A program made the position numbers and the translations under genes. Source: a virus. Taken from it: a stretch of 64,000 bases of DNA. The notes under the pieces were generated by a model. The model searched no databases. It worked only from the letters and a program-made list of their open reading frames with translations, and had not been told where the DNA came from. Location of the stretch: positions 1 through 64,000 of the IMG/VR virus record IMGVR_UViG_3300036806_000217. One strand, given 5' to 3'. Below, one piece after another: positions 5,714 through 55,475 of this stretch; the first letter of the stretch is position 1; every line of letters begins with the position of its first letter.

Positions 5714-6052
5714 TTACCGTGCGTTCCCACGGTGTTCCATGGCGGGCGGCAGGGGCGGTTCGCCACCCCCCGCGCCACCCGGATTGCGCCACCCCGGACT
5801 GTGCCATTCGTCAGTGAGAAGCCAGGTCACCGGGACACGCAGAGCGTCGGCGAGGTCGAGGATGGCGTCGAGGGTGACGGTGCCGGCGTTGTTCTCCAGG
5901 TCGCTGATGCTGCGTCGGTCGAGGCCTTTGGCGGAGCACATCTCGCCGAGGCGCTGTTGCGAGAGGCCCTGGGCACGGCGCAAACTTCGGAGCCGATCAC
6001 CCACTTCGCCTCGGCGGCGGATGGTCGTCGGGCGGTCGGACACATAGGGCAT
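5714..6052 (-). CDS. XRE-family HTH repressor
   Basis: 112 residues with a typical lambda-repressor fold at residues 14-85: GDRLRSLRRAQGLSQQRLGEM, then RRSISDLENNAG and a third helix with LADALRVPVTWLL. The longer frame to 6190 adds a basic tail unlike the family, so ATG 6052 is chosen although its ribosome binding site is weak. The C-terminus is proline/glycine rich. It lies upstream of the integrase on the opposite strand and may control it or act as a superinfection immunity protein. Confidence 0.8.
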   Translation of the reverse strand: MPYVSDRPTTIRRRGEVGDRLRSLRRAQGLSQQRLGEMCSAKGLDRRSISDLENNAGTVTLDAILDLADALRVPVTWLLTDEWHSPGWRNPGGAGGGEPPLPPAMEHRGNAR

Positions 6053-6427
6053 CCCAACAACGCTGGAGTGAGCAAGATCAAATGTCTGTACAGTTAAGTT
6101 CCCATTTGGGGACTGGAGTGACTGGCGCGGTCTTGAGCGAAGCTCCCTTCGACGATAAGTTCGCACGCATGTTCGAGTTATAGACCACATCGAGACCCGC
6201 CCACGGCCAAGGCGGGGGCGCTAGAGGCCCAGACCCCGCCTCGCGCCTGCCCCCAGAACGCCCCACGGGAGCGCTCCAGACACACCCGCCACACACCGCC
6301 GCGTTTCCTGACACCACAGTGGTCAAACGTTCTACCGTCATATGCCGCAGTCACATCCCCCCGACCCCGGGATGCACCAGGCGCCCGCCGGCGCCAGTCA
6401 ACGCACCGTCCACCCCGGAGCACCAAC
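6053..6427. other. divergent regulatory gap before the integrase unit
   Basis: 375 bases without a convincing gene between the leftward XRE gene and the rightward gene at 6428. It contains CTGGAGTGA twice (6063-6071 and 6113-6121), the palindrome CTGTACAG (6087-6094), a LexA-box-like site (listed separately) and a GC hairpin AGGCGGGG/CCCCGCCT (6210-6241). The two open frames on the minus strand (6078-6341, 6178-6426) have unnatural compositions and were not called. Confidence 0.5.
6160..6176 (-). promoter_or_regulatory. LexA/SOS-box-like sequence
   Basis: Read on the minus strand the sequence is TCGAAC-ATGC-GTGCGA. It differs in one base from the actinobacterial SOS consensus TCGAAC-N4-GTTCGA. 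It lies about 110 bases upstream of the XRE gene at 5714-6052, on the side from which that gene would be transcribed. Control by host DNA damage is possible but rests only on this match. Confidence 0.3.
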
Positions 6428-6658: not shown

Positions 6659-6773
6659 GGCTTCCTGAGCAGCGGTGATTACGATCCCAATGGACCCTCT
6701 AATGGCAAGTCAGGAACCTGTTCTGCGCCAAAAGGGTCCCCCGCTCCGACCTTTGCTACTAGCCTCAGCAGGC

Positions 6774-8288
6774 ATGGCGGCACTCCCGGAAGGCACCCCC
6801 GCACCAGCATTGCGCGCCGGCCTCTACGGGCGCGCCTCCCACGATCCCAAGAAGCGCGGCCGGTCCGTAGCCGACCAGATGACCGACAATCGGCGTACCT
6901 GCGCGGAGCGCGGATACCTCATCGTCAACGAGTACGTGGACCTCGACCGCTCGGCCTCGCGCCATGCGCGCAGGGGGCGGGAGGACTACGAGCGGCTCGT
7001 CGCCGACATCACTGCCGGGCAACTCGACATCCTGGTGTCCTGGGAGTCATCACGCGTTAACCGCGACCTGGAGGCATACGTCAAGCTCCGCAACCTGTGC
7101 ATGGAGAGCAAAGTCCTGTGGTGCTACAACGGCACCGTCTACGACATGCGCAAGGGCTCCGACCGGACCGTTACCGGCTTCATGGCGATGATGGCCGAGG
7201 CCGAGGCCGACGGCATCCAAGAGCGGAACGCTCGCACTACACGGCTCGCCGCGGGCCGGGGAAGCCCGCACGGCAAGACGCCCTTCGGCTACACACGCAG
7301 ATACGACCCCACCGATGGCAGCCTCATCGGCCAGTTCCCCCATGACGAAAACGCAGATGTCGTCGCAGACCTCTTCGTCCGAGCCGCCGCACTCGAATCC
7401 CTGAGCAGCCTCGCCCGCCGCCTGTCGGACCACGTCCCCAAAACGACTGAAGCCGGCGTGCGCTACCTCCTCAAGAACCGGGCCTACATCGGCCTGCGCA
7501 GCCACTACGGCCAGGACGTCAAAGCGCTCTGGGACGGCATCGTCGACGAGGGTCTTTTCTGGCGGGTGCAGGAAGTCCTGGCGGATCCTGCCCGCCGAAC
7601 GAGTCGTGACGGCCGGGCAGTGCACCTCTTGTCTGGAATCGCCGACTGCGGCCTGTGCGACGAAAGCGAGCGGGCACGCTGGCTGCGGAGGATGAAGCCC
7701 ACCTACGGAGATCTCGAGCGCTATGGCTGCGGGCCCGCGGGGCACGTCTCGGTGGGCATGGAAAAGCTCAACGCCTATGTAGAGGCCGGATTGATGCACT
7801 GGCTCGCGTCCCCCGCTGCGGCGGCGGCTTTCGTGCCAGTCGCTCCGGGCGAGCTCGCTTCTGCCCGGTCTCGACTGGCTGCCCTGCGTGGGCAGTTGCA
7901 GGAGGCGCGCGAACTGGCCTCGAAGTTCGACCCGGTGACCTACATCCCGAAGCTGAGCGCGCTTTCGCTGGCGGACATGGAATCGAGGGTGCTCCCTCTC
8001 ATGGAGCAGGCGGAGGCGGATGTTCGCCGGCTGGCCTCGATCGGCGACCCCGTCGTGGATCGACTGCTCGGCGCCGACCCGGAACTGCGCGAGGGCGTGT
8101 GGGATGACCTGGAGATCGAGCAGCAGCGGCACGCCCTCAGGCGTCTTGTGCGGGTCACTCTGTTTCGGGCAGCCCGCATGGGCGACAGTCGGCTCGACTC
8201 GAAGCGCGTCCGGTTGCTGTTCGTGGGCCAGGCGGGCTTCGAACCTGCGGGTCGCCGCACTCGCGGGCTGTCGGCAGTCTCGGACTAG
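6774..8288 (+). CDS. int: large serine recombinase (phage integrase)
   Basis: 504 residues from ATG 6774. An N-terminal resolvase domain carries the YxRxS motif (YGRAS, catalytic Ser22), and VSWESSRVNRD supplies further active-site arginines. A recombinase domain follows around KTPFGYTRR, then a zinc-ribbon region (DCGLC, YGCGPAGH) and a coiled coil near residues 350-420. Such enzymes recombine attP with attB through a phosphoserine link. The frame is open to GTG 6675, but the added 33 residues do not look like protein from this family. Its stop shares the CTAG with the stop of the convergent gene at 8285. The last 20 codons contain a tRNA-like stretch (see findings). Confidence 0.92.
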   Translation: MAALPEGTPAPALRAGLYGRASHDPKKRGRSVADQMTDNRRTCAERGYLIVNEYVDLDRSASRHARRGREDYERLVADITAGQLDILVSWESSRVNRDLEAYVKLRNLCMESKVLWCYNGTVYDMRKGSDRTVTGFMAMMAEAEADGIQERNARTTRLAAGRGSPHGKTPFGYTRRYDPTDGSLIGQFPHDENADVVADLFVRAAALESLSSLARRLSDHVPKTTEAGVRYLLKNRAYIGLRSHYGQDVKALWDGIVDEGLFWRVQEVLADPARRTSRDGRAVHLLSGIADCGLCDESERARWLRRMKPTYGDLERYGCGPAGHVSVGMEKLNAYVEAGLMHWLASPAAAAAFVPVAPGELASARSRLAALRGQLQEARELASKFDPVTYIPKLSALSLADMESRVLPLMEQAEADVRRLASIGDPVVDRLLGADPELREGVWDDLEIEQQRHALRRLVRVTLFRAARMGDSRLDSKRVRLLFVGQAGFEPAGRRTRGLSAVSD

Positions 8289-8955: not shown

Positions 8956-9426
8956 TCAGCCGTGCGCTTCCTCTCTCCCTTCGTGGCCATCCTCGGTGGT
9001 CGGCTTGGGCTTCTTTCGAAGAATTTCGAGCATTGCCCGCACATCGGCCACGTCGACCTGCCACGAGTCTGCCGCCTCGTCAGGAGTGAGTGGACGTGAG
9101 CGTACTGACTCTTGCGCCCCTTGGGGTGCGGTTTGCGGTGGGTTGCTTTCGGATTCGGCAAGAAGCTTCTCGACCGTGGTCTCCAGGGCCTTCGCGAGTC
9201 GGGCGAACGGGCGCACATCGGGCATGCGTTCGCCCTTCAGGAGGCGGGTGAGCTGCCCGATGTCCATGCCGGAATCCTCTGCGAGGCGCTTGCGTCCGCC
9301 GGTGCGCCTGCCCGGGGTGATGTCGTACTTCAGGTTCCCACTGGCGTCCTTGACGAGCATTGCCTTGGCCGCGACCACGGCGGCCAACCGCTGAAGTTCT
9401 GACGTGCTCACGTCGTCACCATCCAT
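8956..9426 (-). CDS. XRE-type immunity repressor (CI-like)
   Basis: 156 residues. A helix-turn-helix at about 40-92 (RKRLAEDSGMDIGQLTRLLK, then LAKALETTVEKLL) is followed by a linker and a helical tail. There is no visible peptidase or LexA-type cleavage domain. It is transcribed away from the Cro-like gene at 9662, and the 235 bases between them hold four copies of one palindromic operator. This is the classic arrangement of a temperate-phage switch, so this is the best candidate for the lysogeny repressor. It probably binds TTGTC-N4-GACAA. Confidence 0.85.
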   Translation of the reverse strand: MDGDDVSTSELQRLAAVVAAKAMLVKDASGNLKYDITPGRRTGGRKRLAEDSGMDIGQLTRLLKGERMPDVRPFARLAKALETTVEKLLAESESNPPQTAPQGAQESVRSRPLTPDEAADSWQVDVADVRAMLEILRKKPKPTTEDGHEGREEAHG

Positions 9427-9468
9427 GTTTCTGATGCTAGCGATCTGACACGCCAGAACAGGCGGACT

Positions 9469-9482
9469 TTGTCAGCTGACAA
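9469..9482. promoter_or_regulatory. operator O1, TTGTCAGCTGACAA
   Basis: Perfect 14-bp palindrome 43 bases upstream of the repressor start. A TTGACC hexamer on the minus strand (9495-9490) suggests that it overlaps the leftward promoter and gives autoregulation. Confidence 0.75.
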
Positions 9483-9583
9483 GCATACAGGTCAAGCCAA
9501 TGTTGGCGCGGGGCACCCCGCAGTCCACACAACACCCCCCACCTTGAGCTTTTCCCTCGTCGCGCACAATGCCGCCCACTTAC

Positions 9584-9612
9584 TTGTCAGATGACATTTA
9601 GCGGTGTAGCTT
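9584..9612 (+). promoter_or_regulatory. rightward promoter overlapping operator O2
   Basis: TTGTCA (9584-9589), a 17-base spacer and TAGCTT (9607-9612) form a plausible sigma-70-type promoter for the Cro-like gene. The -35 box is part of operator O2 (TTGTCAGATGACAT, 9584-9597), so repressor bound here would block RNA polymerase. Confidence 0.7.
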
Positions 9613-9613
9613 C

Positions 9614-9644
9614 ATTGTCAGTCGACAAGTTGTCGACTGACAAT
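9614..9644. promoter_or_regulatory. tandem operators O3 and O4, 31-bp palindrome
   Basis: TTGTCAGTCGACAA (9615-9628) and TTGTCGACTGACAA (9630-9643) form a perfect 15-bp inverted repeat around a single G. They lie immediately downstream of the -10 box, over the expected transcription start, and upstream of the GGAGG at 9650. With O1 and O2 they share TTGTC-N4-GACA(A/T). Confidence 0.8.
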
Positions 9645-9661
9645 CATGAAGGAGGTGACCC

Positions 9662-9913
9662 ATGCCCATCACCTTTGACGTCGACCTTTTCCGCAGCGAG
9701 ACCATCGCCGCCGGCCACCAGACCATCGAGCAGATCAGCGAAGCAACCGGCCTCGACATCGCCGTACTCTCGCGACTCCTCAAGAAGCTGCGCCAGCCCA
9801 CCTTCGCCACCGCAGCCCGCTGCGCCAGGCCGTACACCAAGCCACTCGGCGACTACGTGCACTGGAGCGCGGACTCCGAGGCAGAGCTTGAGGTCGAAGA
9901 GGTGGCCGCGTGA
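9662..9913 (+). CDS. Cro-like HTH protein, first gene of the rightward operon
   Basis: 83 residues. QTIEQISEATGLDIAVLSRLLKK is read here as a helix-turn-helix (residues about 20-42); the tail is acidic. The ATG follows AAGGAGGTGACCC. It is the first gene after the operator-promoter cluster and divergent from the XRE repressor, the position of cro in lambdoid switches. It could also be an early activator. The stop overlaps the next start (GTGA). Confidence 0.75.
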   Translation: MPITFDVDLFRSETIAAGHQTIEQISEATGLDIAVLSRLLKKLRQPTFATAARCARPYTKPLGDYVHWSADSEAELEVEEVAA

Positions 9914-10095
9914 GCCCCGAACGGCGCCTGCAGATCCTCGGCGCGGAATGCGTGGCCGAAATCCACCGCATCGTTGACCAGGCCCCACCGCCGAGCCCCG
10001 AGGTCGTCGAGGAAATCCGGCAGATCTTCGCGCCGGCCGTCGAGCGCTACTACCGCCGCCACGGCACCAAGCAGAAGCAGGTCGCCGCCGCCTGA
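9910..10095 (+). CDS. small hypothetical protein
   Basis: 61 residues from a GTGA overlap with the Cro-like gene. A helical protein with PERRLQILGAECVAEIHRIV, a proline-rich turn and a basic C-terminus (YYRRHGTKQKQ). Possibly DNA-binding by charge; no known family. Confidence 0.6.
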   Translation: MSPERRLQILGAECVAEIHRIVDQAPPPSPEVVEEIRQIFAPAVERYYRRHGTKQKQVAAA

Positions 10096-40822: not shown

Positions 40823-42232
40823 TCAGTGGGTGGTGAGCAGGTCGTCCAGGCGCACGACGTCCGAGACGGGCGGGCCGGCGGGACCGCCGAGGGCGACCTC
40901 GACGCCGTCGCCGCGGGTGCCCCAGTTGCCGATCTTGGCGAACGTGAACAGGGCGAAGAAGTACATGGGCTTGACCACGAACATGCGCCACACCCCGGCG
41001 ATCGGGGCGCAGGCCACCAGCAGGATGTGGAACCAGACGGACTCGTCCGAGCGCTTGACCATGAAGAAGCGCAGGGAGATCATCCAGTTCACGCCCGTAC
41101 CCACCAGCAGCGTCGACACCGCCAGCGAACCGGCGTGCGCCCGCGCCGACGGCTGCATCAGCAGCGCGACCGGGATGGCCACCGACAGGATCAGCTGGAT
41201 CAGCTCCAGCAGCGGCATCCAGAACACCGGCGACTGCACCTGGGCGTAGCGGAACCACCAGAACGTGCGCACGAACGTCCCACGCATCCATCTGAGCTGC
41301 TGGCGCCTGTAGTTCGACCAGGACTCCGGCACGAGGGTGTAGGCCACGCATGTGGGCTGGTGGACCGCGTCACCGTGCAGCAGCCCGTACAGGGTCAGCA
41401 TGCTGTCGTCGTTCATCTGCATCGGCCGGCCCCAGAACGTCTCATGGGCGTACACCCCGGCGTACTGCCGGATGACCTCACCGCGGTACAGGGCGAGGGT
41501 TCCCGAGTTGACCGTGACGCGCTTCAGCACCGACTGGGCGGAGCGGAACCCGCGGGTGAACGGCGTGTACAGCATCGCGGTGAGGAACGTCAGCCAGTTG
41601 CTCTTGGTGTTGAGCACCGCCACCAGGCCGGCGACGGAGGTGACCTTCGGGTCGGCGAACGGCTTCAGGCCCTCGGCGACCGCGGCGGCGTCCAGGATGC
41701 TGTCCGAGTCCAGGGTGACGATGATGTCGGAGTCGTCGTCGGCGAGGGCTTCCATCTGGGCGTGGCGCTTGCCCTGGTTCTCGGTGCGCTGCCACGTCGC
41801 GTCGATGCCCACCGCGGCGGCTGCGGCCACGAACCAGTCCCGGACGTGGGCCTGAGGGTCGGCGGAGCCGTCGTCGACGCACCGCACCCGGTCCGGCAGG
41901 CGGGTCTGGTCGAGGACGGACTGCAGGCAGGCCCGGAGCGCGGCCTCGTCCTCGTTGTAGATCGGGATCTGCACGACCACGACCAGGTCGTCCAGCTGCC
42001 GCTGCTGACGGTTGGTGACCTTGCGGGGCTTCTCGAACCACGACAGGGGCACCCACCACAGCAGCAGGAACGAGAACGCCCACGCGAGGGCGAGCCGGTT
42101 GCCGTGGCCGGCGAACGCCGCAGTGACCGTGACGGCGTGCCACACGGCCCAGGCGGTGAACCCGGCTATCGGGAGGGTGGCGAGCAGGACGGTGCGTCTG
42201 CGGTTGGCGTAGGTCGCCACCGGGGCGCGCAT
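40823..42232 (-). CDS. membrane glycosyltransferase, family 2 (hyaluronan/chitin-synthase-like)
   Basis: 469 residues. Two N-terminal transmembrane helices (about 15-40, 47-64), a GT2 domain with QIPIYNE, VDDGS (Asp120, Asp121), TLDSDS (DSD 175-177), NDDS and the processive-synthase motif QQLRW (311-315), then several C-terminal membrane helices. Enzymes of this type polymerise a UDP-sugar and export the chain. Its start overlaps the stop of a small membrane protein upstream, a likely partner. A phage-encoded synthase probably changes the host surface. Confidence 0.88.
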   Translation of the reverse strand: MRAPVATYANRRRTVLLATLPIAGFTAWAVWHAVTVTAAFAGHGNRLALAWAFSFLLLWWVPLSWFEKPRKVTNRQQRQLDDLVVVVQIPIYNEDEAALRACLQSVLDQTRLPDRVRCVDDGSADPQAHVRDWFVAAAAAVGIDATWQRTENQGKRHAQMEALADDDSDIIVTLDSDSILDAAAVAEGLKPFADPKVTSVAGLVAVLNTKSNWLTFLTAMLYTPFTRGFRSAQSVLKRVTVNSGTLALYRGEVIRQYAGVYAHETFWGRPMQMNDDSMLTLYGLLHGDAVHQPTCVAYTLVPESWSNYRRQQLRWMRGTFVRTFWWFRYAQVQSPVFWMPLLELIQLILSVAIPVALLMQPSARAHAGSLAVSTLLVGTGVNWMISLRFFMVKRSDESVWFHILLVACAPIAGVWRMFVVKPMYFFALFTFAKIGNWGTRGDGVEVALGGPAGPPVSDVVRLDDLLTTH

Positions 42233-42396
42233 CAGTGGTCCTGCGGGGTGCGTCCGCGGCGGAACCGGGCCCGGATGACGAGCGCGCCGACGCCGACGAT
42301 GGTGACGATTCCGGCGACGAGCCAGATCTGGCCGAACGCGATCCCGGCGAGGGAGAGCGTCGCGCCGGTGCCAGCGAGAGATCCATACGAGTGCAC
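42232..42396 (-). CDS. small membrane protein paired with the GT2 synthase
   Basis: 54 residues from GTG 42396 (CAAGGAACC upstream). Mostly hydrophobic (LSLAGIAFGQIWLVAGIVTI) with a basic C-terminal end. The stop overlaps the synthase ATG, so the two should be made together. It may be an accessory subunit. Confidence 0.65.
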   Translation of the reverse strand: MHSYGSLAGTGATLSLAGIAFGQIWLVAGIVTIVGVGALVIRARFRRGRTPQDH

Positions 42397-42442
42397 GAGG
42401 GTTCCTTGATCGGGTAGGTGAGTTGATGGTGCGGTACGTGCG

Positions 42443-42479
42443 GTGGCCCGATCCTTCCGCATGATCGCGATCGGGCCAC
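42443..42479 (-). terminator. 11-bp hairpin between leftward genes
   Basis: GTGGCCCGATC (42443-42453) pairs with GATCGGGCCAC (42469-42479). Just past the stop of the gene at 42490, so transcription of the synthase pair may be partly separated from the upstream genes. Confidence 0.6.
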
Positions 42480-42489
42480 GCGGGGCAGG

Positions 42490-42972
42490 TCAGACGTCGC
42501 GCAGGACCAGCGGACGCAGCCGGTACTCGGTCACGTCCCGCCGCCCGTCGACCTCGACATACAGCTGCTGCTCGTCGGGGTCGTCGTCGGCCCAGCCGCA
42601 CGCGATGCTCTTCGCGGCCGGGTAGCGCGCCGTGGCGAGGTCCTCGCACTGCTTCCGGGCGGCGGCCTCCGTCAGCCAGCGCCCGTCGGGCAGCGGCACG
42701 AAGTCTCGTTCGGCCTGGTAGAACACGACCTCGCCGGGCTCGTTGAGCAGGCCGAGGGCGTGGGCGTGGTTGTCGTGGCGTTCGGCGAGGGTGGCGACGA
42801 GCAGGGCGGTCTCGGCCATCTGTCGGGCGTAGCGGCCCTTGCGGTCGCCGGAGGGGATCTGCGCGGCGAACTTCGCGGCCTCGCCGACGAGCTGGCGGGC
42901 GTACTCGGTGAGCTCTTCGAGGGTGGCGTCCTGGTGGACCTGGAGGGTCTGGCGGGCGATCAGATCAGACAT
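42490..42972 (-). CDS. hypothetical phage protein
   Basis: 160 residues, ATG after CGAAGGAGC. Helical first half (TLEELTEYARQLVGEAAKFA, ARQMAETALLVATLAERHD), then a mixed second half with WLTEAAARKQCEDLATA and beta strands. Resembles accessory proteins of Streptomyces phages; unknown role. Confidence 0.65.
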   Translation of the reverse strand: MSDLIARQTLQVHQDATLEELTEYARQLVGEAAKFAAQIPSGDRKGRYARQMAETALLVATLAERHDNHAHALGLLNEPGEVVFYQAERDFVPLPDGRWLTEAAARKQCEDLATARYPAAKSIACGWADDDPDEQQLYVEVDGRRDVTEYRLRPLVLRDV

Positions 42973-43964: not shown

Positions 43965-44678
43965 CTAGGCGGCATCGTGCTCGAAGGGCGGTGGTTCGCC
44001 CATCACGTCGAGCAGCCGCTCGGGAAGCGAATTGGGGCCAAGCAGCGGGTTGACGCAGGCCACGTTGCCGTCCAGCCAGTTGAACGGCACCGCGCCGCCG
44101 ACCTCCAGCCACAGGGCGGTGTGCGACAGGTCGATAGCGACCGGGTCGATGTCCATGCCGTACACGCACTCGAACGTCACCATCGGCAGGACCAGCGCGA
44201 CCAACTCCGGCGGCGTGCTGCCGTCGACAGTCAGCCGCGACACATACGCCTCGGCGATCATGCGGGAGGCCTCGATCAGGAACACCCCGGCGCCACACGC
44301 CGGATCGACCGCCCGGATCCTCAGGATCTGCTCCGGATCGTCCGCCTTGAGCAACTGCTCGGTCTCGCGGATCTCGCGGAGGATCTGCTTGACGCGGGCC
44401 TTGAGCGCCTTCGCTTCGGGCTTGCGGGAGAGGAAGATCAGCTCCCAGATGCCGTCCTCGTAGATGACGTTGAGTTCCTGCAGGCCGCCGGGGGTACCCA
44501 CAATCTGGGTACCCTTCTCGTCCTCGCCGAGCAGGCGCGTCGCCTTCTCGGCGTCCCGGTGGCCCATGGCCTTCGCGAAGTCCGTGGCGGCCACCCACGG
44601 CGTTCCGTCCTCGGCCAGACCGAAGCGCATGCTCTCGCCGCCGAGGTCGAACGGCATGATTTCGCGCGGGTCGTTCAC
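43965..44678 (-). CDS. BRO-N antirepressor domain fused to a truncated N6-adenine methyltransferase
   Basis: 237 residues. Residues 9-105 are a BRO-N/antirepressor domain (WVAATDFAKAMGHRDAEKA, then YEDGIWELIFLSRKPEAKAL). Residues 112-216 match the first half of large adenine methyltransferases of the Eco57I/PglX kind: DPACGAGVFLIEA (125-137, SAM motif I), YGMDIDPVAIDLS (173-185), HTALWLEV and LDGNVACVNPLLG. The protein stops before the catalytic NPPY region, so it can probably bind SAM or a partner but not methylate. GTG start overlaps the stop of the XRE gene upstream. Confidence 0.75.
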   Translation of the reverse strand: MNDPREIMPFDLGGESMRFGLAEDGTPWVAATDFAKAMGHRDAEKATRLLGEDEKGTQIVGTPGGLQELNVIYEDGIWELIFLSRKPEAKALKARVKQILREIRETEQLLKADDPEQILRIRAVDPACGAGVFLIEASRMIAEAYVSRLTVDGSTPPELVALVLPMVTFECVYGMDIDPVAIDLSHTALWLEVGGAVPFNWLDGNVACVNPLLGPNSLPERLLDVMGEPPPFEHDAA

Positions 44679-44911
44679 GATGCCTCCGAGAGTTCGCTGT
44701 CGTCGATCTCCTGGAGGAGTTCTTCGATGGTGAGGTCGTAGAAGGTCATGAACCGCTTGAGGGTGGTGACGGTCGGTTCGACCAACTGGTTGGCGAGGCG
44801 GGACAGGGCTGAGGTGGAGATGCCCGTCCGCTTCATGATCTTGTAGTTGCTGGTGTCACCCCTTCTGGCTGCGGCTTCGCGCAGCCGGGCGACGTTCAGT
44901 CGGTAGGGCAT
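44675..44911 (-). CDS. XRE-type HTH protein coupled to the BRO/methyltransferase gene
   Basis: 78 residues, essentially one HTH domain: LREAAARRGDTSNYKIMKRT, then STSALSRLANQLVEPTVTTL and a final acidic helix LTIEELLQEI. First gene of the leftward block, divergent from another HTH regulator at 45126. The tight GTGA coupling with the following gene resembles regulator-effector or antitoxin-toxin pairs. Confidence 0.75.
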   Translation of the reverse strand: MPYRLNVARLREAAARRGDTSNYKIMKRTGISTSALSRLANQLVEPTVTTLKRFMTFYDLTIEELLQEIDDSELSEAS

Positions 44912-45125
44912 GACTCACCCGTTGATTCGAAGGAGGGGACTAGTTGCCTAGCAAGAACTACTGTACTCGGACGCCCGAACCACGTCCACTCTCGACAACT
45001 AATTTCATTCGTGAAACGCAGCGAAATGGGGGACCCGCCTTCAAACCCCCTAGTCCCCCATATGCAACTATTCCCATCGACCGACCAACCGCCGATACGC
45101 TGCCAACATGGGGAGCCCAGCAAGC
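44912..45125. promoter_or_regulatory. AT-richer divergent promoter region with 9-bp inverted repeat
   Basis: 214 bases between two divergent HTH genes, clearly poorer in G/C than its surroundings. ATGGGGGAC (45026-45034) and GTCCCCCAT (45053-45061) form an inverted repeat with an 18-base gap. CTAGTTGCCTAG (44940-44951) is a second partial symmetry. Operators for one or both flanking repressors are likely. Confidence 0.5.
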
Positions 45126-45677
45126 ATGAGCCGCCACCCACGCTTCGCCCAGTGGCTGGCCACCGCCATGCGCACAGCCGGCCTCGACATCGACAAGCAA
45201 CGCGGCGGCGGCCGAGCCGAACTCGCAGAACGCCTCAACGTCTCCCGCAGCACCATCACCCGCTGGCTCGAAGGCGGCAGCCTCCCCGGCCCCGAATACA
45301 TCGAGCCCCTCGCCGAAGCCCTCAACGTCTACGTCGACGACATGCTCATCAGCGGCGGCATCGTGTCGCCCGGCCGCATGACCCCGGCCGGCGCTGAACA
45401 GGCCGCCCGCAATGGCGGGATCTACGACTCCGGCGTCGAGCTCCCCGCGGACCTCGACCTGACCAAGCTCGCGGAACTCCTCGGCTACCTACCCGAAGAG
45501 CAAGAGATCTTCGTGGCCGTCGTCGAGACCACCATGGCCGCGCTCCGCGAACGCCGGATCAGAGCCATCGCGCCGCCCTTCGAGGTCACCGTCGCCGAGA
45601 GCGACAGCTTCCGCCAGTCCGGGGCGTCCCCGACGATGCAGATCGACGAGCCCACCACCGAGGACTACCCGCACTAG
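45126..45677 (+). CDS. HTH repressor with C-terminal helical domain
   Basis: 183 residues. AELAERLNVSRSTITRWLEGG (about 32-52), then IEPLAEALNVYVDDML, form an XRE-like HTH. The C-terminal half is acidic and helical and may dimerise. ATG 45126 (GGGGAG ten bases upstream) is preferred to ATG 45108. Divergent from the XRE/BRO-methyltransferase operon, so a second switch besides the one at 9.5 kb. Confidence 0.78.
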   Translation: MSRHPRFAQWLATAMRTAGLDIDKQRGGGRAELAERLNVSRSTITRWLEGGSLPGPEYIEPLAEALNVYVDDMLISGGIVSPGRMTPAGAEQAARNGGIYDSGVELPADLDLTKLAELLGYLPEEQEIFVAVVETTMAALRERRIRAIAPPFEVTVAESDSFRQSGASPTMQIDEPTTEDYPH

Positions 45678-45761: not shown

Positions 45762-46175
45762 ATGAGCGACACCACCGCAGCGGACCGCGCATACATCCAG
45801 CACGCCACCAGCGCAGCCCACGCCGCCGGACGCGCCGCAGCTCTACGCGGCATCACCCTCCCCCGCGACGTAGCCCAGCAGATCGCCGACGCCGTCCTCG
45901 GCCACGCCGACAACAAGTACAGCGTCCGCGTCAGCCTCGACCGGCGCGCCTGGCAGCACCCCGACGCCCATGAGCACGCGCTTCAGCAGCTGCGCCGCCA
46001 ACTCCTGGACGAGATCACCAGCCGAGAGCTACTGCCCGTCGCACTGCCCGCCCAGACGCTCACCTACGTGTCGTGGCGGTACGGATCCAACGAGCCCCTC
46101 GCCGCTTCCACTGCCGAGCCGGCCGACTGGGACTCGGTCGAGATCACCCTCACCGTGCCCGTGAGGACGCCATGA
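45762..46175 (+). CDS. hypothetical protein
   Basis: 137 residues. Helical N-half (AADRAYIQHATSAAHAAGRA, LPRDVAQQIADAVLGHADNK) and a beta-strand C-half with WRYGSN and VEITLTVP. Ends 4 bases into the next ATG. Unknown. Confidence 0.62.
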   Translation: MSDTTAADRAYIQHATSAAHAAGRAAALRGITLPRDVAQQIADAVLGHADNKYSVRVSLDRRAWQHPDAHEHALQQLRRQLLDEITSRELLPVALPAQTLTYVSWRYGSNEPLAASTAEPADWDSVEITLTVPVRTP

Positions 46176-46477
46176 CCCTGTACGACCGTGTCGCCGCCAC
46201 CCCCGACGGTGCCCGCGCCCTCGCCCAGGCCCGACTGCGGCACGAGACCCTGCACCTCCTCTGGGACGCCCAGGCCGCATCCGGGATGAGCGTCGAGCAG
46301 CTGGCGAAGGCGCTGGGCGTGCGGCGTAGGACCGTGCGCCGGGCCTTCGACGGCGACGGGAACCTGCCCGTCGGCACGCTTGCCCGCTACCTGCACGCCA
46401 TGGGGTACGAGGTCGAGCTGCGGGTGGTCGCGGCCGGGGAACCACGGCGGAAGATGATCGACGGGAAGGCATCGTGA
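46172..46477 (+). CDS. HTH protein
   Basis: 101 residues. HLLWDAQAASGMSVEQLAKA, then GVRRRTVRRAFDGDG and LARYLHAMGYEVELRVV form a clear helix-turn-helix like small XRE antitoxins. Coupled by ATGA and GTGA overlaps to its neighbours. Confidence 0.72.
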   Translation: MTLYDRVAATPDGARALAQARLRHETLHLLWDAQAASGMSVEQLAKALGVRRRTVRRAFDGDGNLPVGTLARYLHAMGYEVELRVVAAGEPRRKMIDGKAS

Positions 46478-51846: not shown

Positions 51847-53325
51847 GTGGCGGACACTCAGGCGCCGCCCGCGCCCGCACCGCAGACCGTGTACGTTCCC
51901 GTGCCCCAGCCGCCAGCCGTAACGGCGGGCTGGGCGGTTCCGGCTGGGCAGGCCCCGGCGAAGGAGCCGTCCGAGCGGAAGGGTCGCGGCCGCGGGATCC
52001 CGGCAGCGCCGGCATTGGCGGCCGCGGGCAACGCGACGGCGCTCGGCGTCACCTCGGCCTACGCCGCGGGCGGCTGGCCCGGCATGGCCGCAGCGGGCGG
52101 CGCTGCCGTGCTCGCCGCGGGCGGGGCGGTGGTGCACCGGCGCCGAGCGGTGAAGCGCAGCGCGGACATTCGCAAGGCACTGCGGGCCGCGGGCCTCGGC
52201 GGCGGCTCGCTCGGTTCCGGTGGCGGCCGCGGATTCGGCCTCGGTGGCGGGTCGTCTTCGCGCCGTGGCGGGTTGTTCGGTGGCGGGTCGGGTGGCGGCC
52301 GGAAGTCGGCGGCCGCGGGCTCGTCTCGTGGCGCCTCGGGTTCGCGTTCTGGTGGCGGGTCGACGGCTCCGTCCCGTGGCGGCCGCGCGGGTGGGTCGAA
52401 CTCGCCGCGTGCCGGCAAGTCCGGGGCGGGCGCCAGCACCGGTTCGTCCGGTCGCCTGGGTCGGGCCCTGGACCGGATGCTCGGCGGCAGTGGCCAGAAG
52501 GCCGGCGTCGACAAGGCGGCCCGGAAGTCCGCGAGCGAGACCGCTGCGGCGGCGAAGAGCGTCAAGGCGGCGCGGAAGGCGGCGAAGGCCGCGGCGAAGC
52601 AGGCCCGCAAGGATCTCGGCCTGCCGTCCCGCAGCAGCCGGCTCGCCGCGGCGTCCAAGCGCGGCGCCGGCCGTGCCTGGTCCAAGACGGCCAGTCCGCG
52701 GGCGGCTGCCCGTCGCCTCGCCGCCCGGAGCGTGCGGAAGGCCCGCGGCCTCACCGCCGACGGGCTTCGCTCGCTGCGCGCCGGGGTGTGGGGCCTGCTC
52801 AAGCACATGTCCTGGAAGAAGGGCGGCAAGCGGGCCCTGGCCGCGTGGAAGGCGCACCGCGCCAAGCGCAAGACCACCACGCCCGCCGCGCCGCCCACCC
52901 CGCCGATCGCGTCCACCGTCCGCCGACCCGCCAGTACGACCCCCATCCGATCCTCTGGAGGACCCGGCATGTCCGGCTACCACTTCGTCGCACCCGCCAC
53001 GGAAGGCGTCCGCGCCGCCGCGAACTACAACCCCACCGGCATGCTGCAGGTCATCGAGGACTTCGCCGGGCTCTCCGAAGCCCTGGAGCTCCACGCCCAG
53101 GCCATGCGCGTGACCGTCGAGAACGCCGACGCGAAGTTCCCGCTGGCCCCGCAGGTCATCGACGTCATGCGGCAGGTCCACAACCTGCAGCTGAAGGCCG
53201 CCGAGCTCGCCAAGGAGCTCCAGCCCGCATCCCGCAAGCTCCACGAGGCCGACCTCGCCCGCCACTCCAGCCCCCGCAAGGGCCCGCAGGGCGAGCGCAT
53301 GTGGGACATCGCCTCCAACAGCTAG
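51847..53325 (+). CDS. Gly/Ser-rich membrane protein of the transfer module
   Basis: 492 residues from GTG 51847 (CGAAGGAGACCCC upstream). Proline-rich start, a hydrophobic stretch near residues 55-95, a long Gly/Ser/Arg-rich disordered region (to ~205), a basic Ala/Lys/Arg region (~215-355), then a globular C-terminal domain beginning MSGYHFVAPATEGVRAAANY. The last part has its own ATG (52969) after TGGAGGACCC, so it may also be a separate 118-residue protein. Similar proteins accompany Streptomyces plasmid spread genes. Confidence 0.68.
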   Translation: MADTQAPPAPAPQTVYVPVPQPPAVTAGWAVPAGQAPAKEPSERKGRGRGIPAAPALAAAGNATALGVTSAYAAGGWPGMAAAGGAAVLAAGGAVVHRRRAVKRSADIRKALRAAGLGGGSLGSGGGRGFGLGGGSSSRRGGLFGGGSGGGRKSAAAGSSRGASGSRSGGGSTAPSRGGRAGGSNSPRAGKSGAGASTGSSGRLGRALDRMLGGSGQKAGVDKAARKSASETAAAAKSVKAARKAAKAAAKQARKDLGLPSRSSRLAAASKRGAGRAWSKTASPRAAARRLAARSVRKARGLTADGLRSLRAGVWGLLKHMSWKKGGKRALAAWKAHRAKRKTTTPAAPPTPPIASTVRRPASTTPIRSSGGPGMSGYHFVAPATEGVRAAANYNPTGMLQVIEDFAGLSEALELHAQAMRVTVENADAKFPLAPQVIDVMRQVHNLQLKAAELAKELQPASRKLHEADLARHSSPRKGPQGERMWDIASNS

Positions 53326-53354
53326 TCCGCCGTCGCGCGGAGAAAGGCACGATC

Positions 53355-55475
53355 GTGGATCTCGACTGGGACGCCAAGCACGGAGCCGTCACCGGCTCCC
53401 TCAACACAGCCGGTGCCGCACTGGCCTTGGCGTCGATCGAACACGTCGCCCACCTGCCGCTGTGGTCCGCCACCGCGGTAGCCGGCGCCGGACTGGTGGG
53501 CACCCACCTGGCCGGGGTCCGCAAGAAGGTCACCGGTGCGACCCTCGCGCTGCGCGCGGCGTCCTGGATGGCCGTTGGCGGCTGGTGCTCCTGGGCCGCG
53601 GTCGAAGGTCCGTGGACGCGTGACGTCCTCGTGGCCCTCGCCGCCGGCGCCGTCGGACTGGGCGGCGCCATGGCCGGTGCGCACCACGTCGAGGAGAAGA
53701 AGGCGGAGGAGCAGGCCAAGGCCGAGGCCGCAGCGAACCTCGCCAGTCTGGACGGCAAGCGGCGGAAGGTCGCCGAGGAGTGGCAGGAGCGCATCGCGAA
53801 GGTGTGCACCGGTTCCACCGTCCAGATCACCGGCGTGGAGGAGTGGCCGTCCGGCGGCGGCTTCACCCTGGATGGCAACTGCCTGCACGGCACCAAGTGG
53901 CGCGACCTCAAGACCCACGAGGACGCGCTGGCCGCCGAGGCCCAGCTCCCGGAGGGCTGCGGCGTCGAGGTCAAGAAGGGCGCTCACCGCGGCGCTGTCC
54001 TCATGGACGTGGCCACCGTCAACGCCCTCATCGACGACTGCCCCTATCCGTCGGACTACTCGCCGCTGTCCATCAACGACCCGGTGTCTCAGGGCGTGTT
54101 CCGCGACGGCTCCAAGGCCGAGGTCCTCCTCCGCGAACTTACCGGCCTGATCGCGGCCCGCCGCGGCGCCGGCAAGACCAACCTGATGAACGTGGGCATC
54201 GCCAACGGCGTGCGGATGGTCGACAACCTGGACTGGGTCATCGACCTCAACGGCGGCGGCCTGGCCCTGCCGTGGCTGCACGCCTGGGAGGCGGCGGGCC
54301 GTCCGGGTCGGCCGCCGATCGACTGGGTTGCCGACACCCCGGCGAAGGCCCTGGCCATGGCGCAGGCCGCACTGCGGATCGCGAAGGCCCGCAAGCCCGG
54401 CTACAAGAAGCGGGAGATCGCGGCGAACGACGACAAGCTGCCCGTCGGCTCGGACGTCCCGGCGGTGACGATCAGGTGCGACGAGATCGCGGAGATCTTC
54501 TCGCCGCGCGCCCGCAAGAACGAGGTACTGAAGAGGACCGGGGACATCCTCATCCAGATCGTCGAGATCGCCCGCGCTGTCGCCATCAACGAGATCCTGG
54601 CGGCGCTGCGCGTCACCCAGGACGTGCTCGCCGAGCCGCAGGTCCTCAAGCAGTCCGGCCTGAAGATCGGCATGCAGTCCGACGAGGCCGAACTCGCCTA
54701 CCTCTGCGGCTGGGGCGACAAGGTCTCCCCGGAGGACATCCCCTATCCGGGCTGCGGCGTCATGAAGATCGGCGAGGAGCCCGCACGCCCGTTCAAGGCG
54801 TACCGGCTCAAGCCCGCACAGATCGCCGACATCGTCGTCGCTACCAGCGGCCTGCGCCCCGAGCTCGACGAACTGTCCCGCCGCGCAGCCGGCCCGGCCT
54901 ACGAAACCCGGTGGGACGGCATGGACCACATATTCGGCATCGGCGACCTGCCCGAACGCGCAGGCGATGAGGACGGCGACGAAGACGGGGACGGCGAGGG
55001 CACCGAGGACTTCGCTGCGCCCCGCGGCTCCGGCGTCACCGCGAACTGGGGCACCGAGCCGCCGCGCGTCGACACCCAGGCCGCCCTCGACCAGGCCGAC
55101 GCCGCCCGCGACGCCATCCGCAAGGCAGCCGACGAGGCAACCAGCCGCGACGACGACCTCGACGCACAGTTCCAGGCCGTCCTCGAAAGCGGCGGCGCCC
55201 TGTGGAAGCCGCCAGCCGACGTGCCGACCCGCACGGGCCAGCCCATGCCCACCCCGGGCATCAGTGACGACGCCCGCTGGGCCGCCGTGTTCTCCATCGT
55301 CGCGAAGGCCGGTCCGGCCGGGATCAGCCCCACGGCGATCCGCGAGTTCTTCACCCAGATCAGCCCCGGCCTCGAGGCACCGCACCGGGCGACGATCACG
55401 ACATGGGTCCAGGCCGAGCCGCAGATTCACCAGCCCGTCAAGGGCAAGTACGCCCTGCGCCCCGAGGAGAAGTGA
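53355..55475 (+). CDS. traB-like: TraB-like FtsK/SpoIIIE-family conjugative DNA translocase
   Basis: 706 residues from GTG 53355 (GAAAGG upstream). An N-terminal membrane region (three hydrophobic segments within residues 18-108), a charged linker, and a RecA-like motor with Walker A ARRGAGKT (268-275) and Walker B VTIRCDE (371-377). A Glu/Asp-rich linker near 545 precedes a C-terminal winged helix (ISPTAIREFFTQISPG). This is the layout of Streptomyces TraB/TraSA proteins, which move double-stranded plasmid DNA between mycelia as a ring, unlike relaxase systems. No relaxase gene was seen in the window. Confidence 0.88.
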   Translation: MDLDWDAKHGAVTGSLNTAGAALALASIEHVAHLPLWSATAVAGAGLVGTHLAGVRKKVTGATLALRAASWMAVGGWCSWAAVEGPWTRDVLVALAAGAVGLGGAMAGAHHVEEKKAEEQAKAEAAANLASLDGKRRKVAEEWQERIAKVCTGSTVQITGVEEWPSGGGFTLDGNCLHGTKWRDLKTHEDALAAEAQLPEGCGVEVKKGAHRGAVLMDVATVNALIDDCPYPSDYSPLSINDPVSQGVFRDGSKAEVLLRELTGLIAARRGAGKTNLMNVGIANGVRMVDNLDWVIDLNGGGLALPWLHAWEAAGRPGRPPIDWVADTPAKALAMAQAALRIAKARKPGYKKREIAANDDKLPVGSDVPAVTIRCDEIAEIFSPRARKNEVLKRTGDILIQIVEIARAVAINEILAALRVTQDVLAEPQVLKQSGLKIGMQSDEAELAYLCGWGDKVSPEDIPYPGCGVMKIGEEPARPFKAYRLKPAQIADIVVATSGLRPELDELSRRAAGPAYETRWDGMDHIFGIGDLPERAGDEDGDEDGDGEGTEDFAAPRGSGVTANWGTEPPRVDTQAALDQADAARDAIRKAADEATSRDDDLDAQFQAVLESGGALWKPPADVPTRTGQPMPTPGISDDARWAAVFSIVAKAGPAGISPTAIREFFTQISPGLEAPHRATITTWVQAEPQIHQPVKGKYALRPEEK

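Follow-up and report, generated by a model that had tools for sequence, protein, structure and literature searches.

In phage lambda the genes for the repressor CI and for Cro are divergent, and an operator lies over the early promoter (excerpts of PMC6550527 and PMC4557955). In mycobacteriophage BPs the full site of the repressor, gp33, is formed by paired 12-bp palindromes, one of which may be degenerate. Of its operators, named OR and ORep, the repressor-side and cro-side ones are 113 bp apart, and a loop between them, which the authors do not exclude, would in their opinion need bending help; attP is located inside the repressor gene (for all these features, the parts of PMC4557955 covered here). 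As far as the available sections tell, binding sites are dispersed over the BPs genome, and the integrase is of the tyrosine type (PMC12243558). Immunity of P22 is bipartite, one part being C2 and the other immI, where Mnt and Ant belong (excerpt of PMC6550527). The module of the Streptomyces phage Tubberson has been annotated by synteny with BPs (PMC12243558, in part), and repressors of the R4 type, associated with stoperators, are treated in the portion of PMC10276819 considered. The TTTCA and TTGTC operators reported below are not described in the parts covered of PMC12243558 and PMC10276819, nor was a description of them found in the accessible portions of the top-ranked open-access literature.

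The DNA analysed here (the window, a stretch of 64,000 nucleotides) belongs to a viral record of 87,340 bases, which is perhaps incomplete. The region 9401-9662 is read as a switch by which a temperate actinophage controls lysogeny, a reading to which a probability of about 0.83 is given. The immunity switch proposed in the initial annotation is right in kind but incomplete, a second locus being plausible; that annotation had noted neither the leaderless start pattern of the repressor nor the second switch, nor which operator code is used by known relatives. In the proposed scheme the HTH protein encoded at the locus, repressor A, would bind the palindrome TTGTC-N4-GACAA. The repressor would cover the -35 of an early lytic promoter when bound at site O2, and the start point of that promoter when bound at O3/O4, so that cro and the operon behind it would be shut off. 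The Cro-like protein would be expected to act through these sites as well, turning the repressor off. O1, placed in front of the repressor promoter, may serve for self-activation or for a contact with O2, and a second switch (switch B), with a Cro-like/Bro-N pair alongside, may act on the first (switch A).

Switch A shares with lambda the divergent repressor and Cro genes and the operator over the early promoter. It differs in spacing, and also in the repressor, a protein of 156 aa in which no C-terminal S24 peptidase domain, as known from self-cleaving repressors of the LexA kind, was found in Pfam (to E 1) and NCBIfam (to E 0.1). The likeness to BPs, as described in the sections covered, includes the divergent repressor/Cro-like pair, the paired palindromes, and the distance of 113 bp, to be compared with 114-115 bp here. 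In contrast with the dispersed sites of BPs, no site is found outside the switch at 0-1 mismatch, and the integrase (6675-8288, plus strand, convergent with the repressor genes) is a serine recombinase and not a BPs-type tyrosine enzyme.

Operator sites and the cro promoter of switch A

The gap separating the repressor gene (8956-9426, minus strand) from the gene of the Cro-like protein (9662-9913, plus strand) measures 235 bp. Four TTGTC-N4-GACA(A/T) sites had been placed in it by the initial annotation, and all four can be read directly from the DNA exactly where they had been placed, in a number far above chance. O1 (TTGTCAGCTGACAA, 9469-9482) is a perfect 14-bp palindrome, centred at -49.5 relative to the predicted leaderless start of the repressor. 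O2 (TTGTCAGATGACAT, 9584-9597) extends over the cro promoter's -35, and O3 (TTGTCAGTCGACAA, 9615-9628) and O4 (TTGTCGACTGACAA, 9630-9643) correspond to the left and right half, respectively, of a large palindrome. Allowing at most one mismatch, 4 matches are found in the 64 kb versus 0.75 expected, a figure reached in 1 of 100 shuffles. TTGTCN4GACA gives 7 strand-matches versus 0.28 expected (0 of 100 shuffles), and the shorter TGTCN4GACA is found four times in the gap, versus a mean of 0.003 and a maximum of 1 in 200,000 shuffles of the gap. Throughout the 87,340-base record, TTGTC-N4-GACA(A/T) occurs at three places exactly and at one with a single mismatch, all in the gap; the other 19 of 23 places carry two mismatches, and a backwards control pattern is found at 11 places. 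Sites with one mismatch at most are thus confined to the repressor/Cro gap. A motif frequent throughout the genome would have spoken against the proposed switch, and the record shows no such abundance. Stoperators of the R4 and L5 type, in which many sites are scattered genome-wide, were rejected on the same ground, no further site with 0-1 mismatch being present in the 87,340 bases.

As a signature of an immunity group, the four-site grammar together with the repressor fits what was proposed, but the short motif alone is not specific. TGTCN4GACAN3TGTCN4GACA matched 27 stretches of viral contigs. Among these, only L011 (the record of L005, see below) is a relative also found by protein search, and L004 was missed. 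The short motif was hence rejected as a signature, several of the 27 stretches being 15-bp arrays in unrelated contigs. Five viral contigs (L015, L020, L029, L030 and L031), in which no relative of repressor A was found, host arrays of TGTC-N4-GACA palindromes with a period of 15 bp, the same as the O3-O4 spacing.

Two viral relatives of the locus, L004 and L005, encode repressors 69% and 58% identical to repressor A. In the aligned gaps of L004, L005 and the window, O1 and O2 are conserved together with the large palindrome, the Shine-Dalgarno and a -10 that fits TAGSTT, and much else is changed. Distances between site starts are 115, 31 and 15 bp in the window, and 114, 31 and 15 bp in both L005 and L004, the degenerate O2-O4 of the latter being located from the alignment. 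The layout is kept in both relatives, with degenerate sites in L004, where O2 matches the consensus at 7 of 10 positions, and O3 and O4 at fewer than 7. The confinement of the sites to the gap and the maintenance of their layout in L004 and L005 despite a changed spacer both argue for a switch. The gaps measure 235, 235 and 233 bp in the three loci, and the constancy of the O1-O2 spacing may be a mere by-product of this constant length. The TTGTC grammar is known from these three loci only. A profile scan of genome contigs gave 69 pattern stretches and 0 relatives, and hence no host prophages with a TTGTC switch; a scan of genome contigs with the DNA grammar gave 19 stretches, none of which is titled as an actinobacterium. 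By tblastn, P0002 (the Cro-like protein) had no match in phages, and P0001 (repressor A) had one record in plasmids, 31% identical.

Cro-like protein A (P0002, 83 aa) and the repressor have related HTHs (41% over 34 aa). The cro gene is preceded by the Shine-Dalgarno AAGGAGGTGA (9649-9658, plus strand), and followed by a small conserved ORF (9910-10095, plus strand; 75% and 70% over 44 aa in L004 and L005, respectively). The candidate cro promoter (9584-9612, plus strand) is made up of a -35 TTGTCA (9584-9589), a 17-bp spacer and a -10 TAGCTT (9607-9612). The hexamers, and O2 on the -35, are as the initial annotation had them; the -10, however, matches TATAAT at 3 of 6 positions, and the promoter was not listed by a consensus promoter scan. 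The scan pointed to TTGTCA-18-GACAAT within the palindrome, on both strands (2 found versus 0.2 expected), but this was set aside as the cro promoter because its hexamers are not conserved in L004 and L005. The 31-bp palindrome (9614-9644, plus strand) has 15-bp arms and a central G. It had been described as lying over the start region of cro; it spans the predicted +1 (9619) and the leader but not the start codon, as it ends 17 bp before the ATG at 9662. The predicted cro transcript would begin with a 9-bp hairpin. That the palindrome results from two operators agrees with the half-sites of the window and of L005, but not with those of L004, in which the inner ones are lost.

Repressor A and its predicted leaderless start

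Repressor A (P0001) has an HTH_3 domain, with the HTH at residues 46-87, and matches the phrog_3949 profile of transcriptional repressors (E 1.7e-10). A PDB sequence search gave no match, and a fold modelled from three sequences (mean pLDDT 61.7, pTM 0.49) can be trusted in no part but the N-terminal half with the HTH. The candidate -10 of its promoter, TAGCAT (9434-9439, minus strand), lies 7 nt before the ATG, and no Shine-Dalgarno is found in between; a -35 was not recognised by eye in any of the three TTGTC-type loci. A TANNNT motif ending 6-7 nt before the repressor start is present in all of 14 family loci, namely three TTGTC-type loci, repressor B, nine SV1- or Toasty-type phages and one plasmid. 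Alderaan, in which the repressor is unannotated, and Bioscum, near-identical here to Ididsumtinwong, were left out of the count, and for ToastyFinz and PapayaSalad start codons other than the annotated ones were used. As background, the same spacing is found in 5 of 117 crude ORF picks of the record, and repressors A and B are among those five. No Shine-Dalgarno-like word precedes the repressor in 12 loci searched by script, nor, by eye, in those of repressor B and ToastyFinz. On account of the TANNNT spacing and of the missing Shine-Dalgarno, the repressor mRNA is predicted to be leaderless.

The end of O1 and the repressor -10 are 29 bp apart in the window, and also in L004 and L005. Since O1 is found upstream of the place of the -35, no -35 is recognisable and the start appears to be leaderless, a role of O1 in self-activation, or in a contact with O2, is somewhat likelier than simple blocking. 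The leaderless start and the fixed distance of O1 make self-activation versus self-repression directly testable. A conserved block, TACAGGTC-N2-GCCA (9486-9499), adjoins O1. The DNA of the first repressor codons (9401-9426, minus strand), which holds GACGTGCTCACGTC, is identical in all three relatives. Identity covers codons 1-9, in repressors that are 58-69% identical, and has a probability of about 0.003 by chance, as judged from codon identity elsewhere in the gene. GACGTGCTCACGTC spans a possible GTG start of the repressor. The sequence has no exact copy elsewhere in the window, and with up to 3 mismatches is found at 14 places versus 17.9 expected.

Directly downstream of the repressor gene is the gene for P0004 (8285-8941, minus strand), a protein with a hydrophobic N-terminus (by eye), which is probably co-transcribed with the repressor. 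P0004 is 83% and 40% identical in the relatives, and is a candidate for an exclusion protein expressed in the lysogen.

SV1-type phages, operator classes and alternative readings

A tblastn search of 50,697 phage records retrieved 17 records, all from Streptomyces phages and several being duplicate entries. Because the nearest phages are Streptomyces phages, the host is probably found among Streptomyces-like soil bacteria. Genes for integrase, a small or membrane protein, the repressor and a divergent Cro are found in SV1, Darolandstone, ToastyFinz, Tubberson, Raleigh, SoJo, Ididsumtinwong, PapayaSalad and Bioscum; Cro is annotated in all these modules except ToastyFinz, where it was read from the DNA. 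No integrase was found in Austintatious and Alderaan within the stretch examined. The module of SV1, Raleigh and Ididsumtinwong, to which also Tubberson (cluster BC) belongs, has in common with switch A the phrog_3949 repressor, the serine integrase, the small or membrane protein, the leaderless start pattern, the divergent Cro and a small ORF. In both, an operator lies over the cro -35, and operators are found only at the switch. The two differ in operator sequence and number, as two TTTCA-N4-TGAAA operators were found in SV1-type phages and four TTGTC-N4-GACAA sites in switch A. SV1-type repressors are about 30% identical to repressor A, their repressor-side operator lies over the repressor promoter or first codons, unlike in switch A, and integrase is transcribed in the direction of the repressor, and not against it as here. 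Of the traits of the phrog_3949 family, switch A thus features the profile match, the divergent Cro-like gene and the nearby serine integrase, but not the TTTCA operator.

The TTTCA-N4-TGAAA sites of SV1-type phages lie near or over the first codons on the repressor side, and over the -35 on the cro side. TTTCAN4TGAAA, at one mismatch at most, is found exactly twice, between the first repressor codons and cro, in 7 of 8 records, and a backwards control gave 0 matches in them. SoJo, counted in addition to these 7, has a cro-side site with one mismatch. The ToastyFinz record has no TTTCA site; two copies of GCATATGC, looked for only within the 8,255-base locus of this phage, are found in the gap instead. 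Operators and recognition helices mostly change together. The helix fits GQ(L/I)(S/T)R in 3 of 3 repressors associated with TTGTC sites, and (S/T)T(V/I)xR in repressor B and in all 8 SV1-type (TTTCA-type) phages analysed (Austintatious, SV1, Darolandstone, Tubberson, Raleigh, SoJo, Ididsumtinwong and PapayaSalad), several of which are near-identical, and count as fewer independent cases. The ToastyFinz helix is ASISR. The plasmid repressor L039 has a (S/T)T(V/I)xR helix, yet no TTTCA-N4-TGAAA was seen by eye in its gap, and the helix class therefore does not fix the operator. Likely operators of actinophage repressors may in this way be read from sequence, being confined to their own switch and mostly tracking the recognition helix, and the immunity groups of Streptomyces-type phages become predictable and testable.

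The 31-bp palindrome could be mainly a 5' hairpin of the cro mRNA, or the site of another protein, O1 and O2 being the only true operators; this is rather unlikely. Stems beginning at +1 to +3 are found in the predicted cro leaders of 5 of 6 leader groups, with unrelated sequences, and a stem also opens the cro-B leader; PapayaSalad and L004 have a G-T position of the kind tolerated in an RNA stem. By a hand count, L004 retains 13 of 14 pairs of the palindrome, with four double changes relative to the window, while losing the inner GACAA half-sites. The leader stem is reached by a fraction of shuffles equal to 0.0012 in the window, 0.0008 in L004, 0.0047 in both Darolandstone and ToastyFinz, 0.028 in Austintatious and 0.051 in Tubberson; but the stem of L005 is not unusual (0.12), SV1 is without one (0.18), and the best leader fold of PapayaSalad is a different one. 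Whole-leader z-scores (-2.2 to +1.0), like the statistics of the single leaders, are modest, and the idea of a leader hairpin was formed post hoc. In the window and L005, moreover, inner and outer half-sites both match the operator. The outermost pair is T-A, G-C and A-T across the three relatives; it varies and yet pairs upstream of the predicted +1, as though the symmetry of the DNA itself were kept. The palindrome may either be one composite operator, as in BPs, or a 5' hairpin also conserved, or both.

Doubtful, too, is a role of O1 in plain autorepression, in which the repressor would also be read from an upstream promoter (for example TATGCT by O1) whose start O1 would cover. Read on the minus strand, the conserved block beside O1 gives TA(T/G)G(C/G)T in each of the three relatives, and SV1-type phages have an operator over the repressor promoter or start codon; on the other side stand the repressor devoid of a Shine-Dalgarno, the family-wide leaderless pattern, and the failure to see by eye a -35 for the alternative promoter. 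It is highly improbable that the four sites serve another HTH regulator, of the host or of a phage, and that repressor A binds elsewhere. Further HTH proteins are encoded in the record (5714-6190, 45108-45677, 46073-46477), and the plasmid repressor is the one exception to the link of helix and operator, but in the phages examined the class of the sites changes together with the helix of the neighbouring repressor, and SV1-type sites, too, occur nowhere but at the switch of their own repressor. The reading of switch A as a lysogeny switch bound by repressor A is made slightly less certain by the exceptional plasmid repressor and by the outcome of the promoter scan.

A putative second switch

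A profile search of the record revealed a second phrog_3949 protein at 45,108-45,677. Repressor B (P0009, 189 aa; plus strand; E 5e-10) is closest to SV1-type repressors, and shows the leaderless start pattern, TACGCT-6-ATG. In a tree it falls on the SV1-type side, on a long branch and with moderate support (88/94). Cro-like protein B (P0010, 78 aa; 44675-44911, minus strand) is a paralogue of P0002. The candidate operator B (TTTCATTCGTGAAA, 45003-45016) is the sole match to TTTCAN4TGAAA in the record at up to 2 mismatches, and is one base off O2 of Austintatious; base composition would lead one to expect about 0.003 exact matches. The predicted start of cro-B follows about 56 bp downstream of the site, which does not lie on the cro-B -35. 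The candidate -10 of cro-B is TACAGT (44960-44965, minus strand), and a 5-bp hairpin is predicted at the beginning of the leader. P0011 (43965-44678, minus strand) overlaps cro-B by 4 bases, and consists of Bro-N followed by a methyltransferase-like stretch (DPACGAGVFLIEA). Its best PHROG matches are anti-repressors (Bro-N/phrog_130), the methyltransferase-like part making up the second half. Having a second repressor locus in the same record, the P0009/P0010 pair with its own site, the phage resembles P22, as described in the excerpt cited above: two loci, a repressor at each, and an anti-repressor-like gene at the second. Unlike P22, both repressors stem here from one family, and Bro-N is joined in P0011 to a methyltransferase-like stretch.

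Switch B is not found in the relatives. No TTTCA-N4-TGAAA site at up to 1 mismatch is present in the L004 and L005 records, a search with repressor B retrieved only their A repressors, and no relatives of repressor B were found in viral contigs. Bro-N gives a single match in the record of the window, at switch B. In the L004 record a Bro-N/anti-repressor match is found directly behind cro-A, with a second, weaker one about 9 kb away, and in the L005 record a match is found on the strand of cro-A, about 5 kb further downstream; 8 SV1-type records searched gave no match. Since Bro-N is found only at switch B here, and behind switch A, as a candidate counterpart, in L004 and L005, and with P22 immI as a model, it is tentatively proposed that one actinophage genome may host two paralogous repressor/Cro switches with separate codes (TTGTC-N4-GACAA and TTTCA-N4-TGAAA), in which B would guard the Bro-N anti-repressor and time the release of A, an arrangement similar to P22 but derived from one repressor family. 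Two operator codes per genome represent a natural test of how related repressors stay apart.

The record is unlikely to be a composite. Selected proteins include serine integrase, exonuclease and a primase/helicase-like protein, and among 20 record proteins analysed there is a single match each to terminase, portal, major head and tape measure; the assignment to a single phage rests on these selected proteins and on a partial annotation of the record. Two further ORFs were noticed. The one at 40823-42649 encodes a 608-aa glycosyltransferase of family 2 that matches no PHROG to E 0.01, and that at 52788-55475 encodes an FtsK/SpoIIIE-like protein (phrog_31069), here hosted by a phage genome.
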